Origin: Desulfovibrio sp. UCD-KL4C
Lineage (GTDB): Bacteria; Desulfobacterota; Desulfovibrionia; Desulfovibrionales; Desulfovibrionaceae
Assembly: GCF_006210265.1 (NCBI RefSeq)
Contig: NZ_VCNC01000006.1
Location: 62,001-126,000, forward strand
DNA: 64,000 bases
Direction: 5' to 3'
In this document: positions 14,749-30,623 of the stretch, in pieces
Layout of the letters: each line of letters begins with the position of its first letter
How positions within the stretch are numbered: the first letter of the stretch is position 1
Position numbers and translations under genes: made by a program
The notes under the pieces: generated by a model
Seen by the model: the letters and a program-made list of their open reading frames with translations, nothing else
The model's database searches: none
What the model was told of the DNA's origin: nothing

Positions 14749-16017
14749 CTAGCCGCAACTCGTACCTGTTCCAGTGCAACAGCCGCCAGCGATACCGCCT
14801 CTGCGTCCGCTTAATTTACTTAGATCACTTGAAGTGTAAACAGCGGTTAATCCATCTTCAACAAATCCGCTTACGACGTGACAGTCTATTCCGCTTTCTT
14901 CAAGGGCTAACTGTGGTGTCTGGCCCACTGCGGCACATAAAACTGCGCGGCAGTCTTTAAGTGCAGAGGCAAGATCGGCCCAGCGTTTTGGTCCGCAACC
15001 TGATTTAGGAGCCTGACGTTCTTCTATCAGACGATAGGTCCCGTTTTTCCCTTCACCCCAGATATAAAATGACTTAGCTTCACCTAAGTGCTGATTTATG
15101 AGCATACCTTCACGGCTGGCAACAGCAACATAAGGGCGTGCGGCTTTAGGTTCAATCGGAGGAAGTTTAGAACAAGCCTGAAGAGTTCCGCAAAGAGATG
15201 CTGACTGATCCTCACCGAGAAGGCCTACAGCGTCAGCTCGGCAACGCTTACAGTGTGTCATTTGATTGATGACTATTCCTGCCTCTTTACGCAGAGGTCC
15301 TATTATTTCATGTCCGGGTTCTTTTACATTTGCAAAAGGAGTATCTGCTGTCGGCTTAATGGGAATCATGTTCTGAATATCAGCCCCTAGCTTGGAAACG
15401 ACTTTTGCAACTTCTACGATGTGATCTTCATTAATACCTGGTACAACGATGGAATTAACTTTAACGATAATCCCGCGTTCTTTAAGACCTTTGATTGCTT
15501 CAAGCTGACGTTCTAAAAGGACCTTAGCGCCTTGTTCGCCGCGGTATACAACATTTCCGTCTTTAACCCATGAATAAAGTTTTGCTCCTATTTTAGGATC
15601 TACTGCGCTGATGGTAATAGTCACGTGAGATACACCCAGTTCAGCAATGTCATCAAGGTAAGGTAATATGCCCATGCCGTTAGATGATAGACAGAAAAGG
15701 AGGTGCGGATGCTTTTTGTTGAGCAGGCGCATGGTTTCAAGCGTTTCAGCAGGATTTGCAAAAGGATCACCGGGGCCGGCAATGCCTGCAACCGTGATAC
15801 GTGGTTCTTTTGCAAGGACCTGATCCATATATTCTGCGGCCTGAAATGGTTTCAGTACTCCGCTGGTTACGCCAGGGCGTGATTCATTTACGCAATCATA
15901 TTTTCTATTACAGTAGTTGCACTGAATATTACACTTAGGTGCGACGGGGAGGTGAACACGGCCGCATGAGCCTGCTGTTTCTTTATTGAAGCATGGGTGC
16001 TTGGTGGTATCTTTCAT
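14749..16017 (-). CDS. nifB: NifB, nitrogenase cofactor radical SAM synthase
   Basis: 422 residues. It makes NifB-co, the 8Fe-9S-C precursor of FeMo-co, from [4Fe-4S] clusters and SAM. The radical-SAM cysteines are C29, C33 and C36 in APKCNIQCNYC, and further conserved segments are HPCFN, GIAGPGDPFANP and the paired Cys in MTHCKRCRADAVG that bind substrate clusters. From about residue 300 a NifX/NafY-like cofactor-binding domain follows (VAVASREGMLINQHLGEAKSF). The C-terminus is Cys/Gly-rich (GGCCTGTGTSCG). It is last in the operon, 50 bases after nifN. Compare the paralogue at 19645, which lacks the radical-SAM cysteines. Confidence 0.97.
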   Translation of the reverse strand: MKDTTKHPCFNKETAGSCGRVHLPVAPKCNIQCNYCNRKYDCVNESRPGVTSGVLKPFQAAEYMDQVLAKEPRITVAGIAGPGDPFANPAETLETMRLLNKKHPHLLFCLSSNGMGILPYLDDIAELGVSHVTITISAVDPKIGAKLYSWVKDGNVVYRGEQGAKVLLERQLEAIKGLKERGIIVKVNSIVVPGINEDHIVEVAKVVSKLGADIQNMIPIKPTADTPFANVKEPGHEIIGPLRKEAGIVINQMTHCKRCRADAVGLLGEDQSASLCGTLQACSKLPPIEPKAARPYVAVASREGMLINQHLGEAKSFYIWGEGKNGTYRLIEERQAPKSGCGPKRWADLASALKDCRAVLCAAVGQTPQLALEESGIDCHVVSGFVEDGLTAVYTSSDLSKLSGRRGGIAGGCCTGTGTSCG

Positions 16018-16067: not shown

Positions 16068-17441
16068 TTACAGGTATCCGTAGCCGATATTGCTGTCGCT
16101 CTGCTTCTTTTCAAGGACGGCGTTTACGATTTTATCGAAAAGTGAGAGTGCTCCGCGGTATCCAATATGAAGAATGCGCTGACCTCCGAAACGGTCATGA
16201 ATCGGAAAACCTACGCGGATAAGCGGGATGTTCCATGCTTTGGCGTATTTATAACCTTTGGAATGACCGATCATCAGATCTGCTTTCAATTCTTCTGCTT
16301 CGTCAGCGATGTCATGAAAATCGACACCTTCGCGAACGATAGGCATTTTTCTGGCCACGCCTTCGGTTGCATCAGCAATTGCTTTTTCAAGCCCTTTGCC
16401 GCGCGCTCCGGTTCCGGCGAGAACAACTTCAACTCCGATTTCACTAAGGAAGGAACAGAGTCCTGTTACCAGATCTTCTTCGCCGTAAACTATTGCACGT
16501 TTACCAAAAACATATTTGTGCCCATCAACGTATGCATCGATTAAGCGACCACGTTCTAATTCATAGCGACGTGGAGTAGGGGTGCCGGTTACTTCTTCCA
16601 GAGTATCAAAGAGTGCGTCTGTTTCACGCAGTCCCATGGGGATACCTATGCGGTGATTTTTCACTCCGAATTTCTTTTCAAGAGCAACTCCGCCGGTTTT
16701 ATCAGCAAGGCAACGACCGAATTCGATTGTTGCGCTGGCCCCAGACATTTTTTTAATGCTCTTAATCGGGGTTCCGCCTGTAGGGATTTTTACATAATCC
16801 TCAAGTGCCGGAGCGTCCAAAGTTTCAGAAATATCTGGTAAAATAGTAGCTTCTACTTCAAATCTTTCACAAATATCGCGCAGTTCTCTAATATCTTCAC
16901 AGGAAATCATATTTGGAAGAATGTTGACACTATCGTCTTTTTCAGCCTGCTCTGTGCAGAGCTGTTCTACCAAAGAGCATACAGCTCCATGCCAGCCGTC
17001 CATATGCGTTCCGTTGTAGCTAGGGCTCGAAACACTGACTAATTCAGGCAGTTTCAGATCTCCGAATTCTTGACGAAATTCAAATAGAATTCTTGGCACG
17101 TCATCGCCGATGGTTTCGGTAAGGCAGGTTGTTGCGATACCTATAAGCAGTGGATCGTATTTTTTCATGACATTCAAGATGCCTTTTTTTAGATTAGGTC
17201 CACCGCCGTAAATAGCATTTTTCTCACCGAGTGCAGACGAAGCAATATCAACTGGTTCGCGGAAATGACTGATAATATATCGTCTCATATATGTTGAGCA
17301 TCCCTGTGAACCGTGCTGGAAGGGGATAGCTCCTTCAACTCCGCGAAAAGCCAATGAGGCTCCAAGTGGCGTGCAAAGTTTGCAGGCGTTGGTTGTGGAA
17401 ACGAAATTAGCCTTTTCCACTTTATTTTTAACTTTACTCAT
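16068..17441 (-). CDS. nifN: NifN, FeMo-co scaffold beta subunit
   Basis: 457 residues, NifK-like. With NifE it forms the tetramer that matures NifB-co into FeMo-co. Cluster-region motifs include ACKLCTPLGASLAFRG, HGSQGCSTYMRRY and IATTCLTETIGDD. Its ATG overlaps the nifE stop by eight bases, so the two are translationally coupled. Length and motif order are as expected for the family. A GGAGG site precedes the start within nifE. Confidence 0.95.
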   Translation of the reverse strand: MSKVKNKVEKANFVSTTNACKLCTPLGASLAFRGVEGAIPFQHGSQGCSTYMRRYIISHFREPVDIASSALGEKNAIYGGGPNLKKGILNVMKKYDPLLIGIATTCLTETIGDDVPRILFEFRQEFGDLKLPELVSVSSPSYNGTHMDGWHGAVCSLVEQLCTEQAEKDDSVNILPNMISCEDIRELRDICERFEVEATILPDISETLDAPALEDYVKIPTGGTPIKSIKKMSGASATIEFGRCLADKTGGVALEKKFGVKNHRIGIPMGLRETDALFDTLEEVTGTPTPRRYELERGRLIDAYVDGHKYVFGKRAIVYGEEDLVTGLCSFLSEIGVEVVLAGTGARGKGLEKAIADATEGVARKMPIVREGVDFHDIADEAEELKADLMIGHSKGYKYAKAWNIPLIRVGFPIHDRFGGQRILHIGYRGALSLFDKIVNAVLEKKQSDSNIGYGYL

Positions 17442-18819
17442 TGCCTGCCTCCTTTATTATTTTACTTATCCGGTTGGAACGTCTTGGAACAAATGACCAT
17501 ACCGGACTCATTACTGAGGAATGAATTTCGCGGGCGAAGTTTAACATTCCCTCAAATCCTTCGAGAGCTTCTTTGCGTTCGTGGTTATGATCGCAAAAGC
17601 CGACACCCATTTTGAATGCGATAGGGCGTTCTTTTACGCCGCCGACAAAGACATCCACATCTTTTTCTTTAATAAAAGCTGAAAGTTCCAGCGGATTGGC
17701 ATCATCGACTAAAATTGTGCCGGGGTCGGCAATTTGAGCCAGTTCTGCATAATCTTCCTTGGTTCCAGTCTGTGAACCTACCATAACGACTTTCATTCCA
17801 AGGTGCCGAAATGCTTTGAGCAGTGAGAATGCTTTGAAAGATCCACCTACATACATAGCAACTTTTTTGCCTTCGAGGTCTTTGCGATAGCGGGCAATCT
17901 CCGGCATAAGTTTTGAAAGTTCGTCTTTAACAAGATCCTGAGTGCGTTGAACAATGTTCGGGTCGATATCCTTAAAGAAATCAGCCACCTGATAAAGAGA
18001 CTCTGCCATGTCCTCAATGCCTAGGTAGGAGACACGAATGAATGGTTTGCCATACTTTTCTTTTATCATTTTTGCTAAATCGAGAGTCGCACCCGAACAT
18101 TGAACTAGATTTAAAGCCGCACCATGACTGCGGCCGACATCTTTAACTCGTCCGTCACCGGTTATATTGGCAACGACTTCTACGCCCATGCGTCTAAAGT
18201 ATTCTCTGACAATCCAGATTTCTCCGGCGAGGTTGAAGTCTCCTAAAATATTAACAGAAATTGGAGATACATCGGAGACGTCTTCTGTTCCGACAAGTTT
18301 AAACATGGCTTTGCAAGCAGCTAGGTAACCTTCGCGTTTGCTGCCTTTGAATCCTTCAGACATAACAGGAAGAACAGGGATTCCTTTCTTCTCAGTCATT
18401 TTTCTGCATACAGCTTCAAGGTCATCACCGATTATTCCGACAATGCATGTGGAATAAACGAAAGCAGCTTTCGGGCTGTGTCTGTCTATGAGTTCGTCAA
18501 GGGCGGCCTCAAGCTTTTTTTCTCCACCGAAGATGACATCTACTTCCTGAAGGTCCGTTGAAAAGGACATTCTGTGCAGTTCCGGTCCGCTTGAAAGAGA
18601 GCCGCGAATATCCCATGTGTAAACAGCGCAACCGATGGGGCCGTGCACCAAATGCAATGCATCGGCAATGGGGTAAAGGACAACGCGGGAGCCACAGAAA
18701 ACACATGCCCGCTGGCTTACAGCTCCGGCAAGAGATTCGCGGTTACAGGCTATATCAATGTCGCCCTGTCCTGTTCTATGGATCTGATCCTTTCTTTCTT
18801 CTAATATGGCACTAGTCAT
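17434..18819 (-). CDS. nifE: NifE, FeMo-co scaffold alpha subunit
   Basis: 461 residues, NifD-like. Motifs: RACVFCGSRVVLYP, VHGPIGCAVYTWDIRGSLSSG (the RGS..SG stretch distinguishes NifE from NifD), VYSTCIVGIIGDD and CSGATLDLA. Partner of NifN in cofactor assembly. It starts ten bases after the GNAT gene, with a ribosome site inside the gap. Assignment as NifE rather than NifD follows from the operon order and the absence of the catalytic MoFe His ligand region seen in NifD. Confidence 0.95.
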   Translation of the reverse strand: MTSAILEERKDQIHRTGQGDIDIACNRESLAGAVSQRACVFCGSRVVLYPIADALHLVHGPIGCAVYTWDIRGSLSSGPELHRMSFSTDLQEVDVIFGGEKKLEAALDELIDRHSPKAAFVYSTCIVGIIGDDLEAVCRKMTEKKGIPVLPVMSEGFKGSKREGYLAACKAMFKLVGTEDVSDVSPISVNILGDFNLAGEIWIVREYFRRMGVEVVANITGDGRVKDVGRSHGAALNLVQCSGATLDLAKMIKEKYGKPFIRVSYLGIEDMAESLYQVADFFKDIDPNIVQRTQDLVKDELSKLMPEIARYRKDLEGKKVAMYVGGSFKAFSLLKAFRHLGMKVVMVGSQTGTKEDYAELAQIADPGTILVDDANPLELSAFIKEKDVDVFVGGVKERPIAFKMGVGFCDHNHERKEALEGFEGMLNFAREIHSSVMSPVWSFVPRRSNRISKIIKEAGNE

Positions 18820-18829
18820 GGCTTCACCT

Positions 18830-19285
18830 TTATGAATGACGCTTTCTCAGACAAATGAGCCGGGTAGGTTCCCACCCGAGATTTTTATAGAAGTTAAGTG
18901 CCGGTACATTTTCGCTATCTGCAAGCAGTTGCAAACGTGATGCGTTGTTGTCTTTCGCATATGTTCCGATACTGTCCATTAGCATTCTACCTATGCCACG
19001 CCCTTGCCAGTCTTTGTGTACAACTACATCTTCCACCAGTACTGAGAGTCCGCCTTCAGCGGTGGAAACCATAAATTGTCCAGAACACATGCCGACCACA
19101 CTATTTCCAGCTTTAGCGACCAGAATACATCCCCGACTGGTTTCAAGCAGCATTGTAAGTCCGCGCAGTTGTCTTTCTCTATCTGCACTAAAGTCTGCTT
19201 CAATGGAAAAGAGCTTTTCCAGCAGGTCAGCAAGACTGTTTAGATCTTCGCGAACTGCGGTTCGTATTTTAATTGTGCGTGGCAT
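18830..19285 (-). CDS. GNAT family N-acetyltransferase inside the nif operon
   Basis: 151 residues. The acetyl-CoA binding motif A is in VVHKDWQGRGIGRMLMDSI (Q/R-x-x-G-x-G/A pattern), preceded by the beta strand LSVLVEDVVV; motif B is VPALNFYKNLGW. Family function is acetyl transfer to an amine; the target is unknown. It sits 14 bases after the ferredoxin gene and ten before nifE, so it is co-transcribed with the nitrogenase genes. That position suggests a role in nitrogenase or nitrogen metabolism, for example acetylation of a Nif protein, which is inference. Confidence 0.85.
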   Translation of the reverse strand: MPRTIKIRTAVREDLNSLADLLEKLFSIEADFSADRERQLRGLTMLLETSRGCILVAKAGNSVVGMCSGQFMVSTAEGGLSVLVEDVVVHKDWQGRGIGRMLMDSIGTYAKDNNASRLQLLADSENVPALNFYKNLGWEPTRLICLRKRHS

Positions 19286-19299
19286 GAGTCTTCTCTGGA

Positions 19300-19602
19300 T
19301 TAACTAAGTAAATATTTTTCGCAGGGTTCGCCGTCTTCAAGGCTATCGAGTATTTCATCAATTACGCCTTCAGATTCTACACCCTTGAACCACCAGTTTT
19401 CAGGCTGAACAACAAGTATCGGGCCTGATTCACACTGCTTAAGGCAGGTTGTAGCTACGACGAGTGCATCGAGACCGCGATCAAGAAGTTCTTCTTCGAT
19501 ATATTGCAGAAAACCTTCAGTCGATTTGTGACAGATTCCTTTGGGGCTTCCTGTGGTGCGAAAACTTTGACAACATACTATCATTCTTTCCGGTGTAGCC
19601 AT
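19300..19602 (-). CDS. Thioredoxin-like [2Fe-2S] ferredoxin (Shethna type)
   Basis: 100 residues. The cysteine pattern VCCQSF..TGSPKGIC, then TTCLKQCESGPILVV, is that of the thioredoxin-fold [2Fe-2S] ferredoxins (Aquifex Fd4, Azotobacter Shethna protein II). In Azotobacter the Shethna protein II shields nitrogenase from oxygen; elsewhere relatives carry electrons. Either role is possible here. The gene lies between the NifB-like gene and the GNAT gene in the nif operon, which supports a nitrogenase-linked function. Confidence 0.85.
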   Translation of the reverse strand: MATPERMIVCCQSFRTTGSPKGICHKSTEGFLQYIEEELLDRGLDALVVATTCLKQCESGPILVVQPENWWFKGVESEGVIDEILDSLEDGEPCEKYLLS

Positions 19603-19644: not shown

Positions 19645-20790
19645 TTATTTTTTGCACTTTTTTTTCTTGCCACCACCGTAGAGTGAATCAACGGTGCCTT
19701 CGATTTCGCCGTCTGTAACTGCGACATACAAGCCGTGTTGGCTCAAAATTTTCTTTGGACTGTCTCCGGCACTGGCAGCTAAGAGGATAAAACAGTCACT
19801 GAGAGTTCCAGCCAGTTCTTCCCATCTTGCTGTGCCTCCACCAGCTTTCGGAGCGGTGCGAGTTTCAAGCAAGCAGGCCAAGCCGTCATCACGTGGTCCG
19901 TAGATTAAAATCTTTTCTGCGTGTCCAAGGTGCATATTCACTTCCATACCGTTGGAACTTACTGCTGCAACATTAGGTCTTGGTTTTGTCGGTTTCGGAA
20001 GAAGTGAACTTGGTTCATTTTTTAATATTGCACCGCATTCTTCCCATTCCGGCATAAGATCAATGTGTTTTGATGCAAGGTCACGGGCTGCTGCCATTGT
20101 GATGCTGTCGGTCTTTTTAAGCAGAATTTCTTGTTCTTCATCTCTAGGAATGAAAGGAACAACAGCCATTATGTCTGCGCCGAGAGCTTTCATTGTTTCG
20201 GCAATTTCACCGACATGGTCTGCATTGGGCGGATATACTGTCGTGTTGATCTTAACAGTAATACCTGCGGCTTTAAGTGCTTTTACTGCTCCGGCCTGTT
20301 CGCTTAGCAGCAGGGAAGAAGCTTCTTCCAGCGGGATATTTTTCTTGGAAGGTCTGATCCAAGCGTAAAGTTCTTCAATCATAGATCTAGAAATAGCATC
20401 CACTAGAAGAGTAACGTGTGATACACCAAGTTTTGCAAGAGTCTCAGCGTGTTCTGCTCCTCCGATACCAAGAGTGGTTACGCAAAGAGAAATATTTGGA
20501 TACTTAGCTTTGACAAGTTCCAAGGTACGAAAAGTCAGGTCCGGTATAACTAATGGATCACCGGGGCCGGTAATGCCGACAACTTCAATTTTGCGTCCTT
20601 CGGAGATAAGTTCATCCAGCCATGCTAAAGCCGCTTCAGGTTGAATAGAATCCTGAATTTTCTGCATGGAACTGTATTTGATGCGTGAATTTGCCCGTGG
20701 AGCTACAGGCAGATGAATTCGGTCTACTGTCTTGCGGGCAGCTGATCCGAAGCAGGGGTGCGATGAATATGTTGAACTTGACTTTGTCAT
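19645..20790 (-). CDS. NifB/NifX-like protein lacking the radical-SAM cysteines
   Basis: 381 residues, aligning with NifB by eye over its whole length: HPCF (11-14), RIHLPVAP (24-31), GITGPGDPLVIP, SHVTLLVDAIS, KINTTVYP, and a C-terminal NifX-like domain (VAAVSSNGMEVNMHLGHAEKI). The CxxxCxxC motif of NifB (C29, C33, C36) is replaced here by A33, I37 and S40, so it cannot bind the radical-SAM [4Fe-4S] cluster in the usual way. The frame is intact and in the middle of the nif operon, so it is not a decaying copy. It may carry or insert a cofactor precursor, or partner with NifB; this is inference. It ends in a Lys-rich tail. The frame stays open upstream of ATG 20790 without another usual start. 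Confidence 0.85.
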   Translation of the reverse strand: MTKSSSTYSSHPCFGSAARKTVDRIHLPVAPRANSRIKYSSMQKIQDSIQPEAALAWLDELISEGRKIEVVGITGPGDPLVIPDLTFRTLELVKAKYPNISLCVTTLGIGGAEHAETLAKLGVSHVTLLVDAISRSMIEELYAWIRPSKKNIPLEEASSLLLSEQAGAVKALKAAGITVKINTTVYPPNADHVGEIAETMKALGADIMAVVPFIPRDEEQEILLKKTDSITMAAARDLASKHIDLMPEWEECGAILKNEPSSLLPKPTKPRPNVAAVSSNGMEVNMHLGHAEKILIYGPRDDGLACLLETRTAPKAGGGTARWEELAGTLSDCFILLAASAGDSPKKILSQHGLYVAVTDGEIEGTVDSLYGGGKKKKCKK

Positions 20791-20853
20791 GGCTGTTTCC
20801 AGTTCCTGCTTTAGAAGTTCTTTTGCGATGGAGCTTAATAATTTTTTTAGCGG

Positions 20854-20889
20854 GTCTGAGGAAACTTTTTTTAAAAAGTCTCCCCAGAC
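20854..20889. repeat. Near-perfect 36-base hairpin between nifK and the NifB-like gene
   Basis: GTCTGAGGAAACTTTTT and AAAAAGTCTCCCCAGAC face each other around TT: a 17-base inverted repeat with two non-Watson-Crick positions. In the operon RNA this would be a strong stem just after nifK. It could protect the 3' end of a nifHDK message or attenuate transcription into the cofactor genes; neither is shown by the sequence. Confidence 0.75.
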
Positions 20890-20908
20890 ACCGGGAGTCT
20901 TGTTTTCT

Positions 20909-22282
20909 TTAAAGGACTAATTCGAAGCTTTCTTCAGGTTCGTCACGATCTTTACGATCCAGAAGCAGGCCAAGAATTTTTTCAAGAAGGCGAAGTCCGC
21001 CTTTGTAACCGACGGTCGGGAAGTACTGATGTCCCTGACGGTCGAGGATTGGGAATCCCCAGCGAAGGAATGGAATGTCTTCGTCACGGGCAATATACTT
21101 TCCGTATGAATTACCGATGAGTAGATCGACAGGCTCATTTTTGATCCACTGGTGGAGTTGGAACATGTCGCTTTTAGCTTTAACGTTAACTTCACACGGC
21201 ATGTCTGCTGTGATTTCTTTGATGCGTCTTTCAAACTCTTTACCGGGTGTTCCTGTGATGACATGCACTGGTTGCATATCAAGGGCACGAAGAAATTCAC
21301 ACATTGAGATGAGCTGATCAGGGTCACCGTAGATAGCTACTTTTTTGCCGTAGAAGTACTGGTGCATGTCAGATATCATATCGACGAGCTGACCGCGTTC
21401 AACGTCAATTGCTTCAGGAACAGTTACACCTGCGACTGTGCGGAGAACGTCAATGAAACGGTCTGTTGCGTTAAGTCCGAAAGGCATATCCAGAATTGTG
21501 CAAGGAACTTTGCATTTGGAATCAAGCCAGCGTGCAGCATCAGCAGAACACCATTCGCCTAAAGCAAGTGTTCCAATGGCTCCGCCTGTGTCCTTCAGTT
21601 CTTTCATAGTTACTCCGCCGTCGGGGAACATTTTATATTCTCCGGTCAGAGGAGCATTCAGAACTCCGGAAGTGTCAGGGAAGAGGGTTATATCTACGCC
21701 GACTACAGAGGCAAGGCGTTTGATTTCTTCCATGTCAGAAGGCTCAACCCATCCTGGAATGACGTTTACTTTACCGTTCTTTTTTGTTCCCGGGGTTGCA
21801 AGCTGGGCCATTGCTTTGACCATGTTGCTGAATCCGGTAACATGGGAACCGACGTAACTTGGAGTAGGTGCTCCGATGACAAATTTTCCTTCGGGTATTT
21901 TGCCTTCTTTTTCTGCTTTATGAGCTATCTGCTTTAGGTCATCACCAATAGTTTCAGACAAGCAGGTTGTGTGCACTGCAATTACTTCAGGTTCGTAAAC
22001 GGTGAAGATATTATCAATTGCCTGAAGTAGGTTTGCCTGTCCGCCGAATACGGATGCTCCTTCTGTGAAGGAGCTTGTTGCGGCAGAGATTGGTTCTTTA
22101 TAGTGTCTTGTTAAAGTAGATCTATGGTAAGCGCAGCAACCCTGTGAACCGTGACTGTGAGGCAGACATCCGTGGATGCCGAGGGCCGCATACATGGCAC
22201 CGATAGGCTGACATGTTTTAGCTGGATTGATCATCAGGGACTTACGTTCAGTAATTTCTGTGGGGGTGTGTCTGAGTAACAT
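20909..22282 (-). CDS. nifK: Nitrogenase molybdenum-iron protein beta chain
   Basis: 457 residues, the beta subunit of the MoFe protein. P-cluster cysteines are visible in TCQPIGAMYAALGIHGCLPHS and HGSQGCCAYHRS, and in HTTCLSETIGDD. It lacks the long N-terminal extension of Azotobacter NifK and matches the shorter group II (Clostridium/Desulfovibrio) form. The gene starts 18 bases after nifD. A strong hairpin follows its stop codon. Confidence 0.96.
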   Translation of the reverse strand: MLLRHTPTEITERKSLMINPAKTCQPIGAMYAALGIHGCLPHSHGSQGCCAYHRSTLTRHYKEPISAATSSFTEGASVFGGQANLLQAIDNIFTVYEPEVIAVHTTCLSETIGDDLKQIAHKAEKEGKIPEGKFVIGAPTPSYVGSHVTGFSNMVKAMAQLATPGTKKNGKVNVIPGWVEPSDMEEIKRLASVVGVDITLFPDTSGVLNAPLTGEYKMFPDGGVTMKELKDTGGAIGTLALGEWCSADAARWLDSKCKVPCTILDMPFGLNATDRFIDVLRTVAGVTVPEAIDVERGQLVDMISDMHQYFYGKKVAIYGDPDQLISMCEFLRALDMQPVHVITGTPGKEFERRIKEITADMPCEVNVKAKSDMFQLHQWIKNEPVDLLIGNSYGKYIARDEDIPFLRWGFPILDRQGHQYFPTVGYKGGLRLLEKILGLLLDRKDRDEPEESFELVL

Positions 22283-22300: not shown

Positions 22301-23938
22301 TTATTCCCACACGAACGTAGCGGTGAGTTCGGGGTTCTTCTGCCAAGGAGCTTTCATGTAGCCCCAGACCTTGCTTCCAACGAGGCGGTCGATTTCTTTG
22401 TAGAAGTTAACCGCACCTTTGAATCCTGCATAAGGTCCGCCGGAGTCATAGCTATGCAACTGCTTCATAGGCACGCCCAGTTTCTGAATTGAGAATTTCT
22501 CTTTAATACCGGCGCAGAAAACATCAGGTTTAAGTATTTCAACAAGTTTTTCGGCCTCGTACTGGTTAAGGTCATCAACAATGATGGAACCATTATCCAT
22601 GTCTTTATTTAGACCTTCGTAGTGCTTGAATTTTAGCCCAGCGGCTTCAAGAGCATTAATTTCGTCAGGAGTTTTACGTGCTTTGAAGTATTTCTCATCT
22701 GCTTCTACTGTGAGCTCTTCAATGTTACGTGAATCGGAGTCAACTTTTAAGCTAGGAATGACATGACGGCCTTCATAGTCATCACGATGAGCAAATTCGT
22801 AACCGGCAGAGATTGTTTTCATACCCATTTCAGCGAATAGATCCTGATAGGAATGAGCACGCGAACCACCGACGAAGATCATTGCAGTCTTGCCATTAGT
22901 ACGGGGTAGTACGTCATTTGCTACGACTTCGACTTCAGGCATCTCTTCTGCAATTACATCATTAATTCTTTTGATGAGTTTAGGATCTCCGAAGTATTCA
23001 CCTATTTTACGCAGAGACTTAGCAGTACTTCTTGCTCCGATGAAGTTAACTTTGATCCATGGAATGCCGTATTTTGTTTCCAGCATATCCGCTACGTAGT
23101 TAATTGATCTGTGACACATGACGCAGCTTAAGTCGGCATGTTGAGCAGAGGCGAACTGGTCATATGATGAGTTCCCTGAGAAAGTTGAGATGTTTGTGAT
23201 GCCGCATTTTTTGAAAATTCGGTCAATCTCAAAACCATCACCGCCGATGTTATATTCACCGAGAAGGTTAATTTTATATTCGCCTTCTGGGGAGGTCTTA
23301 TTTTCACCGACAAGGTGAGTGAAGACCTGGTTGTTTGCGATATGGTGACCTGCTGACTGAGAAACACCTTTGTATCCTTCGCAGGAGAAAGCAAAAATGT
23401 TACAGTCTTCGTACTGTGCAGAAAGTTTTCTTGCTACAGCGTGAATGTCATCACCAATCAAACCAACCGGACATGTTGCGAAAATACAGATCCCTTTAGG
23501 ATGGAACAGCTCATAGGCTTCAATTACAGCCGCTTCGAGCTTTTTTTCACCGCCGAAGATAATATCCTGATCCTGCATATCTGTTGTAAAACAGTATGGG
23601 ATGTAATTTTCGCCGTCTTTTCCTGCATCAGTCTGGTTACGTCTGGTAAGCCATGCGTAGAAACTACAACCTACAGGGCCGTGGACTATATTTACGATGT
23701 CACGGGTTGGTCCCATGATAACGCCCTTACAACCTGCGTAAGTACAGCCGCGCATTGTGATGATGCCTGGTATGGTACGAACGTTTGCTACTATTTCAGG
23801 GGAGGTGTCAGCACCAACCGCTTCATTAATCATTATCTGTTTGGCGCGTTTGCGGGCTACTTTAGGAGGATACTTCTTGAGAAGCTCATCCTTAATATCA
23901 GTGGGGCTCCACTGCACCATTTTTGTCGTTTTTGTCAT
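22301..23938 (-). CDS. nifD: Nitrogenase molybdenum-iron protein alpha chain
   Basis: 545 residues. The FeMo-co ligands are recognisable: the Cys in SCVMCHRSINYVADML and the His in MKQLHSYDSGGPYAGF. P-cluster Cys occur in TMRGCTYAGCKGV, VHGPVGCSFYAW and IFATCPVGLIGDD. The chain is longer than the Azotobacter type, with extra sequence in the region around DKNGSIIVDD and LTVEADEKYFKARKTPDEIN, as in group II nitrogenases. No vnfG/anfG-like delta subunit gene is present, which argues for the molybdenum enzyme. Confidence 0.97.
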   Translation of the reverse strand: MTKTTKMVQWSPTDIKDELLKKYPPKVARKRAKQIMINEAVGADTSPEIVANVRTIPGIITMRGCTYAGCKGVIMGPTRDIVNIVHGPVGCSFYAWLTRRNQTDAGKDGENYIPYCFTTDMQDQDIIFGGEKKLEAAVIEAYELFHPKGICIFATCPVGLIGDDIHAVARKLSAQYEDCNIFAFSCEGYKGVSQSAGHHIANNQVFTHLVGENKTSPEGEYKINLLGEYNIGGDGFEIDRIFKKCGITNISTFSGNSSYDQFASAQHADLSCVMCHRSINYVADMLETKYGIPWIKVNFIGARSTAKSLRKIGEYFGDPKLIKRINDVIAEEMPEVEVVANDVLPRTNGKTAMIFVGGSRAHSYQDLFAEMGMKTISAGYEFAHRDDYEGRHVIPSLKVDSDSRNIEELTVEADEKYFKARKTPDEINALEAAGLKFKHYEGLNKDMDNGSIIVDDLNQYEAEKLVEILKPDVFCAGIKEKFSIQKLGVPMKQLHSYDSGGPYAGFKGAVNFYKEIDRLVGSKVWGYMKAPWQKNPELTATFVWE

Positions 23939-28265: not shown

Positions 28266-28850
28266 ATGAGTGTTTCAAGTGTCGGAAGTTCAGTGAACTC
28301 AGAGGGGTACTCTGATCTGATAGCTCAGATGCAGGAGGCTCGCCAAGATGGAGGCAACGAAGAGTTCGTAAGTTCCATGATTCAAGAGAATGATGGGGAT
28401 GGCGATGGGTTCCTCACTGCTAAAGAAACCGGGTTTAACGGTGCTCTGTTCAAATCCATTGATATAAATGGAGATGGGCTGGCTTCGTCAGAAGAATTGA
28501 CTAAGGGAATAGGAAAACTGCAACAGCAGAAAGGTATGATGGGTGAACTTGCTGTGCGCATGCAAGAGTCAAGTGGCAGCTCAAAAGTTAATGTCAGTGC
28601 TGATAACACCGCTTCTCAAGATGATGAAGTAGAATATGATGTCTATGATCTGAATAAAGATGGCATTGTTACCGGAAATGAATTTTTGCAGGCTTTTGAG
28701 GCAGGTGATCAGAGTCTTGCGGAAGTCGTTGGAAAATCGAAAGAGCCAGGCAAAAATAATGATAAGTCAGCTCTAATGCAAAGGGCCGCTGGCGCCTATC
28801 AAGCTCAGGGTGCAGCTACAGGGATAAGTCCTTTAGGAGTAGTTGTATAG
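28266..28850 (+). CDS. EF-hand calcium-binding protein, paralogue 1
   Basis: 194 residues with three EF-hand calcium loops: ENDGDGDGFLTAKE (about 41-54), DINGDGLASSEE (about 67-78) and DLNKDGIVTGNE (about 133-144). The chain is acidic and Ser/Gly-rich, with no N-terminal signal peptide or membrane segment. Its start MSVSSVGSSV and its end (PLGVVV) are shared with the next two genes, so the three arose by duplication. The AAGGATGGGA ribosome site is good. The conserved termini without a signal peptide could suit signal-less export, for example a type I or flagellar-type route, but no transporter is near. Confidence 0.8.
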   Translation: MSVSSVGSSVNSEGYSDLIAQMQEARQDGGNEEFVSSMIQENDGDGDGFLTAKETGFNGALFKSIDINGDGLASSEELTKGIGKLQQQKGMMGELAVRMQESSGSSKVNVSADNTASQDDEVEYDVYDLNKDGIVTGNEFLQAFEAGDQSLAEVVGKSKEPGKNNDKSALMQRAAGAYQAQGAATGISPLGVVV

Positions 28851-28888
28851 TTTTGTTGTTTTAAATATATTTTTGTTGCTCGCAACAT

Positions 28889-28925
28889 AAAAAAACTCAT
28901 GCATGTTATCTGTATGAGTTTTTTG
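28889..28925. terminator. Terminator, first of three near-identical copies
   Basis: AAAAAACTCATGCAT, a short loop, then TGTATGAGTTTTTTG. The same hairpin recurs at 30661-30697 and 32350-32384. Confidence 0.85.
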
Positions 28926-29097
28926 CGTTTTATAACCTTACGGAATTATTTGCTTAATTCATAGTCTAATTTTTAGCGCTAAATCTGCAATTCCTAATAA
29001 TTTATTTAAATTTTAATCCTCTATCTTTTTGAAATTCCGACTAAAAATTTTACCGTAATATTTACATATGTAGACTTAATTTTTCTTAACATTGTTT

Positions 29098-29112
29098 GGG
29101 GCATAACTTGCT
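29098..29112 (+). promoter_or_regulatory. sigma54-like promoter of the second EF-hand gene
   Basis: GG (29098-29099), ten bases, GC (29110-29111) in TTGGGGCATAACTTGCT. The -12 half is consensus; the -24 half is weaker. An ATATGTAGACT element at 29067-29077 lies just upstream and is identical over 11 bases to sequence in the nifA enhancer region. Confidence 0.45.
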
Positions 29113-29187
29113 GCAGTCTGTCTTGAGATTAAAAACGGCAGATATTGCCTAATCGCAGGAACTGTTCTGAACAAGGAGGGAAAAACT

Positions 29188-29988
29188 ATGAGTATTTCCG
29201 GTGTTGATAGTTCGATGATCGCAGGAAGTAATTCTGATATTATCGCACAAATGCGCGGGTCCAATAAAGGAAATATCGCCGAAGAATTTGTAAGCTCCAT
29301 GGTTGCTGATAATGATGGAGACGGTGATGGATTGCTCAGTCTTAAAGAATCTGGAATGTCCTCTGATCTGTTTAATCTGATCGACACTGATGGTGACGGT
29401 CAGGCTTCGCAAGAAGAGCTTCTTGCAGATCTTGAGAATAAGCAGGAACAGAAAGGTATGATGGGCGAGCTTAGCGTGTATATGCAAGGTGGCGCAAACA
29501 GTGGGATGAGTCTTACTGAATCTATAATGAGTAGTATGGATAGTGATGGAGACAATCTTTTAAGTCAGGAAGAAACAGGCCTTAATGATGAATTGTTTTC
29601 AGCACTTGATGTAGATGGTGATGGCAGTATCTCAGGTGAAGAGCTTAATGCCGCTATGACTCCACCTGATGCAACTGAACAGTCTACTGCCGCAACCGCT
29701 GCATCGTCTGCATCCTCTGGGTCAGAAATTTCCGCATCATCATCAACAACTGATGAAGATGACGAAGAAACTTACGATGCTTATGATCTGAATCAAGATG
29801 GCGTTGTAACTGCTGATGAACTTATGCAGGCTTTTAATAATGGTGATGAGAGCCTTGCTGATGTGGTTGGAAAATCTTCTAAGGTAGATGGGCAGAGTGG
29901 GCAGTCTCCGCTTACTCGAATGGCTATGAAAGCTTATCAGGGGCAAAGTGACGGTACTGGCATGAATCCTTTAGGCGTAGTTGCTTAG
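29188..29988 (+). CDS. EF-hand calcium-binding protein, paralogue 2
   Basis: 266 residues, the longest of the trio, with five EF-hand-type loops: DNDGDGDGLLSLKE, DTDGDGQASQEE, DSDGDNLLSQEE, DVDGDGSISGEE and DLNQDGVVTADE. A Ser/Ala/Thr-rich linker (about 173-195) separates the fourth and fifth. The conserved start is MSISGVDSSM and the end MNPLGVVA. No signal peptide. The loops keep Asp/Asn at positions 1, 3 and 5 and Glu at 12, so calcium binding is credible. AAGGAGGG ribosome site. Confidence 0.82.
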   Translation: MSISGVDSSMIAGSNSDIIAQMRGSNKGNIAEEFVSSMVADNDGDGDGLLSLKESGMSSDLFNLIDTDGDGQASQEELLADLENKQEQKGMMGELSVYMQGGANSGMSLTESIMSSMDSDGDNLLSQEETGLNDELFSALDVDGDGSISGEELNAAMTPPDATEQSTAATAASSASSGSEISASSSTTDEDDEETYDAYDLNQDGVVTADELMQAFNNGDESLADVVGKSSKVDGQSGQSPLTRMAMKAYQGQSDGTGMNPLGVVA

Positions 29989-30083
29989 TTTGAATATTAG
30001 AAAATAGATTTGTGTAATATTTGCTTATAACTAATCGGCATATGTTGTAATTTACAAAATGATTTTTAAGATGGAGCAAAGCT

Positions 30084-30623
30084 ATGAGTATTTCCGGTGT
30101 CGGAAGTTCTATGGACTCTGGTGGGACCGCTGAAATGATCGCTCAATTGCGTGAAGCACAGGCAAATAAAAGTAATGGTGAGAATGATACCGTTGCAGAC
30201 GCCCTGCTTAGTGACCAACAGGGCGGTTCTGTTAAAATTGGTGACGAAAAAGATTCTTCGCAAGAGGGCTTGATTGAAAGCTTGAAAAGTAATCAAGAGC
30301 AAAATGGCATGATGGGCGAACTTGCTGTAAGTATGCAAAGCGGAGAAAGTTCGACAAAAGCTAGTACAAATGTAGACGAGTCTACTTCTAGTAATGAAGA
30401 GGAGACCTTTGATGCTTATGATCTGAATGAAGATGGTGTGGTCACTGGTGATGAACTTTTACAGGCTTTTGAAGAGGGTGATGAGAGCCTTGCCAATGTG
30501 GTTGGCAGATCAAAAGAATCAGAAAAAAATGACGGAAAATCAGCTTTAACGCAAAAGGCTACACGTGCGTATCAAGCTCAAAGTGATGTAACTGGTAAAA
30601 ATCCTTTAGGCGTAATTGCATAG
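30084..30623 (+). CDS. EF-hand protein, paralogue 3 with degenerate N-terminal loops
   Basis: 179 residues. The start (MSISGVGSSM), the central EQNGMMGELAVSMQSG block and the C-terminal EF-hand (DLNEDGVVTGDE) match paralogues 1 and 2. The two N-terminal loops are gone: the equivalent region (about 35-65) has no D-x-D-x-D-G pattern. So one credible calcium site remains. It follows paralogue 2 by 95 bases without a terminator between them and may be co-transcribed. Ribosome site GGAGC. Confidence 0.78.
   Translation: MSISGVGSSMDSGGTAEMIAQLREAQANKSNGENDTVADALLSDQQGGSVKIGDEKDSSQEGLIESLKSNQEQNGMMGELAVSMQSGESSTKASTNVDESTSSNEEETFDAYDLNEDGVVTGDELLQAFEEGDESLANVVGRSKESEKNDGKSALTQKATRAYQAQSDVTGKNPLGVIA

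Follow-up and report, generated by a model that had tools for sequence, protein, structure and literature searches.

A NifB paralogue without the radical-SAM motif is conserved in nif operons of nitrogen-fixing sulfate-reducing bacteria and may carry NifB-co

The window, a 64,000-nt stretch of contig NZ_VCNC01000006.1 from Desulfovibrio sp. UCD-KL4C to which the coordinates in Table 1 refer, contains a minus-strand nif operon with the gene order nifH-I1-I2-D-K-NBL-fdx-GNAT-E-N-B. Here, NBL denotes a NifB-like protein lacking the radical-SAM cysteines. A preliminary description of this DNA had placed an intact frame between nifK and a ferredoxin gene and a normal nifB at the end of the operon. 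Both were confirmed: the NBL frame runs from an ATG at 20790 to a stop codon at 19645-19647 without interruption, and the terminal nifB encodes all ten cluster ligands. The nifK/NBL junction contains a strong stem-loop with no T run downstream of the hairpin. Stable folds are present at this junction in most relatives, the exception being Desulfocapsa-type loci, where the spacers are only ~14 bases long. The stem-loop may have a role in setting the ratio of nifHDK to maturation gene expression. The GNAT gene between the ferredoxin gene and nifE is common to many Desulfovibrionaceae and Desulfobulbales operons, with or without NBL.

Table 1. Features of NBL and the surrounding nif operon in the window
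Feature	Position	Strand	Basis
nifB, canonical; NBL paralogue with all ligands intact	14749..16017	-	NCBIfam 385.7 bits, cut-off 343.65
nifN	16068..17441	-	NCBIfam, slightly below cut-off
nifE	17434..18819	-	NCBIfam above cut-off
GNAT acetyltransferase gene, within operon	18830..19285	-	Pfam; position conserved
2Fe-2S ferredoxin-like gene, directly 3' of NBL	19300..19602	-	NCBIfam fdxn_Clost, sub-cut-off; conserved neighbour
NBL, 381 aa	19645..20790	-	Intact ORF; Pfam/NCBIfam, NifB alignment, AlphaFold model
Lys-rich C-terminal tail GGGKKKKCKK	19648..19677	-	In most NBLs
C-terminal NifX/NafY-type domain, residues ~270-371	19678..19983	-	Pfam PF02579, above gathering score
H287 = NifX H35 = NafY H121, cofactor ligand in those proteins	19930..19932	-	HMM alignments; conservation
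Degenerate radical-SAM barrel, residues ~9-262	20005..20766	-	Structure matches
Degenerate K2 motif, NifB CxxC to W249..C252, second Cys kept	20035..20046	-	Alignment; PMC9692996
C103 = MtNifB K1 ligand C128, kept	20482..20484	-	Alignment; PMC9692996
Position of lost CxxxCxxC (A33, I37, S40)	20671..20694	-	Ungapped alignment with NifB CNIQCNYC
H26 = MtNifB K1 ligand H42, kept	20713..20715	-	Alignment; PMC9692996
C13 = MtNifB K1 ligand C29, HPCF motif, kept	20752..20754	-	Alignment; PMC9692996
Stem-loop, nifK/NBL junction	20851..20893	-	RNAfold -32.9 kcal/mol, z -4.5
nifK	20909..22282	-	NCBIfam above cut-off
nifD	22301..23938	-	NCBIfam 650 bits, marginally below cut-off

BLASTP alignment of NBL with NifB from the same window extended over the full length of both proteins (32% identity and 53% positives over 390 columns, E 2e-71), in keeping with the earlier statement that NBL follows NifB throughout and with the two-domain layout of a NifB barrel followed by a NifX-like domain. 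Pfam searches returned Radical_SAM (39.9 bits) and Nitro_FeMo-Co (34.5 bits). On the NCBIfam nifB model (TIGR01290), NBL reached 165.9 bits and failed the cut-off that NifB from the window passed. The AlphaFold model of NBL had a mean pLDDT of 89.7, and the best solved-structure matches of its barrel were to NifB (7bi7, Z 29.8; 6y1x, Z 29.6), the next radical-SAM enzymes falling below Z 19.

The CNIQCNYC motif of NifB lies opposite ANSRIKYS in NBL without a gap, and the same alignment at this motif was obtained with the NifB chains 6y1x and 7bi7. This rules out a shift of the cysteines and bears out their reported replacement by alanine, isoleucine and serine. The remaining cluster ligands were mapped from the NifB structures reviewed in PMC9692996, using MtNifB numbering, in which the K1 ligands are C29, H42 and C128 (PMC9692996). 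All three are kept in NBL. At the K2 site (CxxCRxDAxG in NifB), C273 is replaced by W249 and C276 is kept as C252, which is followed by G in place of R. The YDCVNESRPG gating loop, including C62 and E65, is deleted as a whole, whereas all ten cluster ligands are present in every NifB compared. NBL thus fails on the CxxxCxxC motif, the C62/E65 loop, the K2 motif and the TIGR01290 cut-off, and a catalytic NifB is ruled out. The preliminary view of the barrel as simply inactive holds for the radical-SAM site, which is gone, but may not hold for the K1 site, whose ligands are kept in the clade of the window, so that this site may still bind a cluster.

The C-terminal domain had also been described as NifX-like, and both the Pfam match and structural comparison agree. 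When modeled alone (pLDDT 89.6), its best matches were NafY (1p90, Z 13.4) and NifX (9ian, Z 13.0), which is effectively a tie; the two structures were missed by a single-sequence search with the C-terminus and were both recovered by a domain profile. H287 aligns with H35 of NifX, which is seen to coordinate an apical iron of NifB-co in the structure of NifEN with NifX (PMC13128457), and with H121 of NafY, a FeMo-co ligand (PMC8496260). All 82 NBLs examined, comprising 80 in the count together with L131 and L132, have an equivalent histidine. Two positions ahead of this histidine, 95% of NBLs without the radical-SAM motif and all four with it have D, and the NifBs compared have N, such that VDxHLG of NBL is closer to VDQHFG of NifX and LDGHFG of NafY than to VNxHLG of these NifBs. 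On its predicted fold and cofactor-type histidine, NBL is therefore placed in the NifX/NafY superfamily (Nitro_FeMo-Co).

NBL gave no match to the NifX model TIGR02663 (cut-off 112 bits), and none of the 149 family genomes contained a stand-alone NifX at or above this cut-off. Matches of the NifX model at nifB and NBL loci were in the range ~20-45 bits, NBL from the window not being among them. In the genome of the window, NifB and NBL are the only proteins of the nif region with a NifX-type domain, all other such domains lying on other contigs. A second nifD-like cluster in one family genome (G106:C28:421570-426485) includes a stand-alone NifX-like protein that, at 93.6 bits, falls just below the cut-off and is by far the best NifX match among the 149 genomes. 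The Pfam matches of NBL include no DIMCO_N, the N-terminal sterile-alpha-motif domain of NafY, for which the genome scan with PF16844 gave no match in its controls either.

Three comparisons around the window gave dN/dS values of 0.15, 0.07 and 0.12 for NBL and, in the same order, 0.09, 0.05 and 0.08 for its NifX domain, which was mostly lower among relatives of the window (0.03-0.09). A few other pairs gave higher values, 0.18-0.37, and NifB gave 0.03-0.05. Purifying selection on NBL is thus clear, yet weaker than on NifB. The reading frame is open in all NBL orthologues examined, and, given this conservation and the dN/dS values, the reading of NBL as a pseudogene was rejected. Column conservation, expressed as the mean majority fraction, was 0.67 for the NifX-type domain versus 0.49 for the barrel. 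Among 26 Desulfovibrionaceae NBLs, the K-site ligands were conserved at 1.0 (C13), 0.96 (H26), 0.81 (C103) and 1.0 (C252); their average of 94% against a barrel column mean of 53% (permutation p 0.003) may be inflated by inherited constraint on Cys and His. The K1 triad is also kept in NBLs from another family of the phylum (L099-L103 and L105), and the K-site ligands are lost in Desulfobulbales-type NBLs. GPGD is nearly invariant, P76 and G77 being present in 58 of 58 rows.

The suggestion to survey related operons for the same gene was followed up across 149 Desulfovibrionaceae genomes together with 395 genomes sampled from the phylum; coverage beyond Desulfobacterota consisted of one pattern-based scan. 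NBL was found in about 50 of the 87 nifD-positive Desulfovibrionaceae genomes and in no nifD-negative one. It adjoins nifK, upstream of nifEN-nifB, and always occurs in a nif genome. Desulfobulbales-type nif operons also carry the gene, and species-level contigs added NBLs from Electrothrix, Desulfocapsa, Desulfopila, Desulforhopalus and Desulfobulbus. Approximately 37 of the 87 nifD-positive family genomes are without NBL, including that of D. vulgaris, a species that requires its nif genes to grow on N2 (PMC10102598). The radical-SAM motif is absent from 77 of 81 NBLs and present in every NifB compared, which indicates that its loss in NBL is not due to chance. A single branch with 99% support separates NBLs from NifBs in a tree of the whole protein, and the same split was obtained with the barrel alone and with the NifX domain alone. 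Given that this tree is unrooted and that the long branches of NBL may be drawn towards archaeal NifB, no date or donor was inferred for the duplication. NBL is a conserved orthologous family that is widespread in nitrogen-fixing sulfate-reducing bacteria. Neither finding that would have told against the preliminary description was obtained: the cysteines are not shifted, and homologues under selective constraint occur in related operons.

The four NBLs that keep the motif belong to two genera (L073 and L132; L076 and L131). They retain CxxxCxxC and C62, have lost C29, C128 and E65, and occupy the NBL slot of the operon beside a complete nifB. In the tree they fall on the NBL side, nearest NifB, and they carry NBL-type residues such as D285. 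A complete NifB ligand set was found in no NBL, which implies that different lineages lost different halves of the machinery. This pattern fits a relaxation of catalysis followed by mosaic decay, an order that we infer from an unrooted tree. The complementary-loss members would thereby record the conversion of an enzyme copy into a non-enzyme. The four proteins themselves possibly have SAM activity on another substrate.

With two-domain NifB of the NifB-NifX type, the radical-SAM synthase of NifB-co, NBL shares architecture, full-length identity, barrel fold (Z ~29.7) and operon, but NifB has CxxxCxxC, the C62/E65 gating loop and an intact CxxCRxDA and lies on the opposite side of the tree. 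NifX, the NifB-co carrier to NifEN (Protein Data Bank entries 9ian and 9iao), has the same domain fold, the equivalent histidine and the VDxH motif; unlike NBL, it is a single domain of ~158 aa, to which NBL adds a 260-residue NifB barrel and the Lys-rich tail. The C-terminus of NifX docks on a positive patch of NifE, whereas that of NBL is this Lys-rich tail. NafY, the FeMo-co carrier to apo-NifDK (1p90), likewise has two domains, a matching C-terminal fold and the equivalent histidine, but its apo-NifDK-binding N-terminal domain is a small sterile-alpha-motif domain where NBL has the NifB barrel. Identification of NBL as NifX proper or NafY proper is not supported, and the best-supported classification is a NifX-domain carrier type built on a dead NifB, with cofactor binding predicted.

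Literature searches for a NifB paralogue lacking the motif turned up two earlier reports. In the survey of Arragain et al. (2017), 28% of putative NifB sequences were dropped for missing motifs, mostly Cx3Cx2C, and judged to be NifX (PMC5715403). These have a NifB annotation, a NifX domain and no Cx3Cx2C, as does NBL, and NBLs may be among them; they were dismissed as misannotated NifX, with no two-domain NifB-derived family recognized and no operon placement or analysis. In Paenibacillus, NifB3 and NifB4 are encoded by additional nifB copies that accompany a functional one, and the K2 motif is missing from one variant (PMC8287671). Unlike NBL, which is conserved across families, these two-domain copies still have Cx3Cx2C, and they were considered potential pseudogenes (PMC8287671). 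None of the papers found describes a two-domain NifB-derived family that occupies a constant slot in the operon and whose members have lost complementary sets of ligands, features that appear to be new. One consequence is that annotation-based counts of "NifB" overstate the number of catalytic enzymes.

The reading we favor, to which we give an even chance, is that NBL is a NifB paralogue without radical-SAM chemistry that acts non-catalytically, holding or carrying NifB-co (the L-cluster), most likely from NifB to NifEN. NBL would take NifB-co from NifB and present it to NifEN, which is the job of stand-alone NifX elsewhere, and His287 would bind the cluster at an apical iron. In the lineage of the window, the old NifB pocket, which retains the three principal K1 ligands and a single K2 ligand, could serve as a second site at which a 4Fe or 8Fe cluster rests; otherwise, the NifB-shaped barrel would serve as a docking or scaffold body. 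The best-supported location of the conserved function is the NifX domain. The earlier proposal of an inactive NifB relative with a new role, either as carrier or as regulatory partner, stands insofar as NBL is non-catalytic and conserved beside a working NifB; of the two roles, the invariant NifX-type histidine favors the carrier. The lack of a stand-alone NifX above the cut-off in the family leaves room for a carrier such as NBL, and the absence of NBL from many nifD-positive genomes implies that its task either can be dispensed with or is one in which the NifX domain of NifB itself takes part. Azotobacter can do without stand-alone NifX (PMC13128457). Counting against a carrier is that the K-site ligands are not family-wide. 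More tentatively, it is conceivable, if doubtful, that NBL, as a dead copy of a radical-SAM cofactor synthase, acts as chaperone for the product of that enzyme, keeping the 8Fe cluster in the inherited pocket by its K-site ligands, without the SAM cluster, and handing it over by a NifX-type histidine arm. It would then be the NifB-level counterpart of the NifDK/NifEN pairing of enzyme and scaffold.

The slot after nifK is the position of NifY in other operons, so that a role on the NifDK side fits the location of NBL equally well, and for this reason a NafY/NifY-like chaperone is the main rival. Here, the barrel would bind apo-NifDK, and H287 would deliver or gate finished FeMo-co. The nifDK-NBL order resembles the nifDKT-nifY order of other diazotrophs, Desulfocapsa-type NBL begins ~14 bases past nifK, and the slot after nifN is taken by nifB with its own NifX domain. 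The correspondence of H287 to NafY H121 and a C-terminal fold that fits the NafY core as well as NifX point the same way. We nonetheless regard this role as rather unlikely, given that the barrel is derived from NifB, that the cluster ligands in the clade of the window suggest NifB-co or its precursors and not FeMo-co, and that the NafY N-terminal domain is absent from the Pfam matches. Inactive paralogues often regulate their active counterparts, and NBL might instead be a pseudo-enzyme subunit or regulator that forms a pair with NifB and governs how stable NifB is, how it is loaded with clusters or how it releases its product. Although the two proteins share fold and ancestry and occur in the same genomes, this role is improbable: it leaves the strict cofactor-ligand histidine unexplained, four genes separate nifB from NBL, and D. 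vulgaris NifB functions without NBL.

The near-invariance of GPGD, the SAM-amine site motif of radical-SAM barrels, and retention of the K1 ligands in the clade of the window and in L099-L103 and L105 could be taken to suggest radical-independent chemistry, in which NBL binds SAM or donates 4Fe-4S units, feeding K clusters to NifB. Radical-SAM enzymes, however, bind SAM via the unique iron of a cluster that is absent here; GPGD may be structural, and Desulfobulbales-type members lack the K1 ligands, which makes such chemistry highly improbable. That NBL is a decaying, functionless nifB duplicate is scarcely credible. Its mosaic ligand loss and its absence from some nif genomes would be expected of such a copy, but the low dN/dS and open frames, an operon position fixed across families and the histidine in every member would not.

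The route of NifB-co from NifB to NifEN is still debated. As a holder or carrier of NifB-co, NBL would represent a natural, conserved NifB body in which cluster holding is separated from cluster making, without radical chemistry. It may accordingly serve as a SAM-inert scaffold on which K- or L-cluster intermediates could be trapped, and nitrogenase engineering might use it as a component.

The presence of NBL on D. vulgaris plasmids was considered and rejected, the matches being to NifB on plasmids without NBL. At the site after nifB, the L2 plasmid has no Drt2 gene, and the nif plasmid of Nitratidesulfovibrio vulgaris DP4 carries a Drt2 antiviral reverse transcriptase gene (L123, 10865-12148) directly 3' of nifB. 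In the window, just beyond nifV, three tandem paralogous ORFs are present at 28266-30623 on the plus strand, two of them with clear EF-hand-like DxDGDG repeats.
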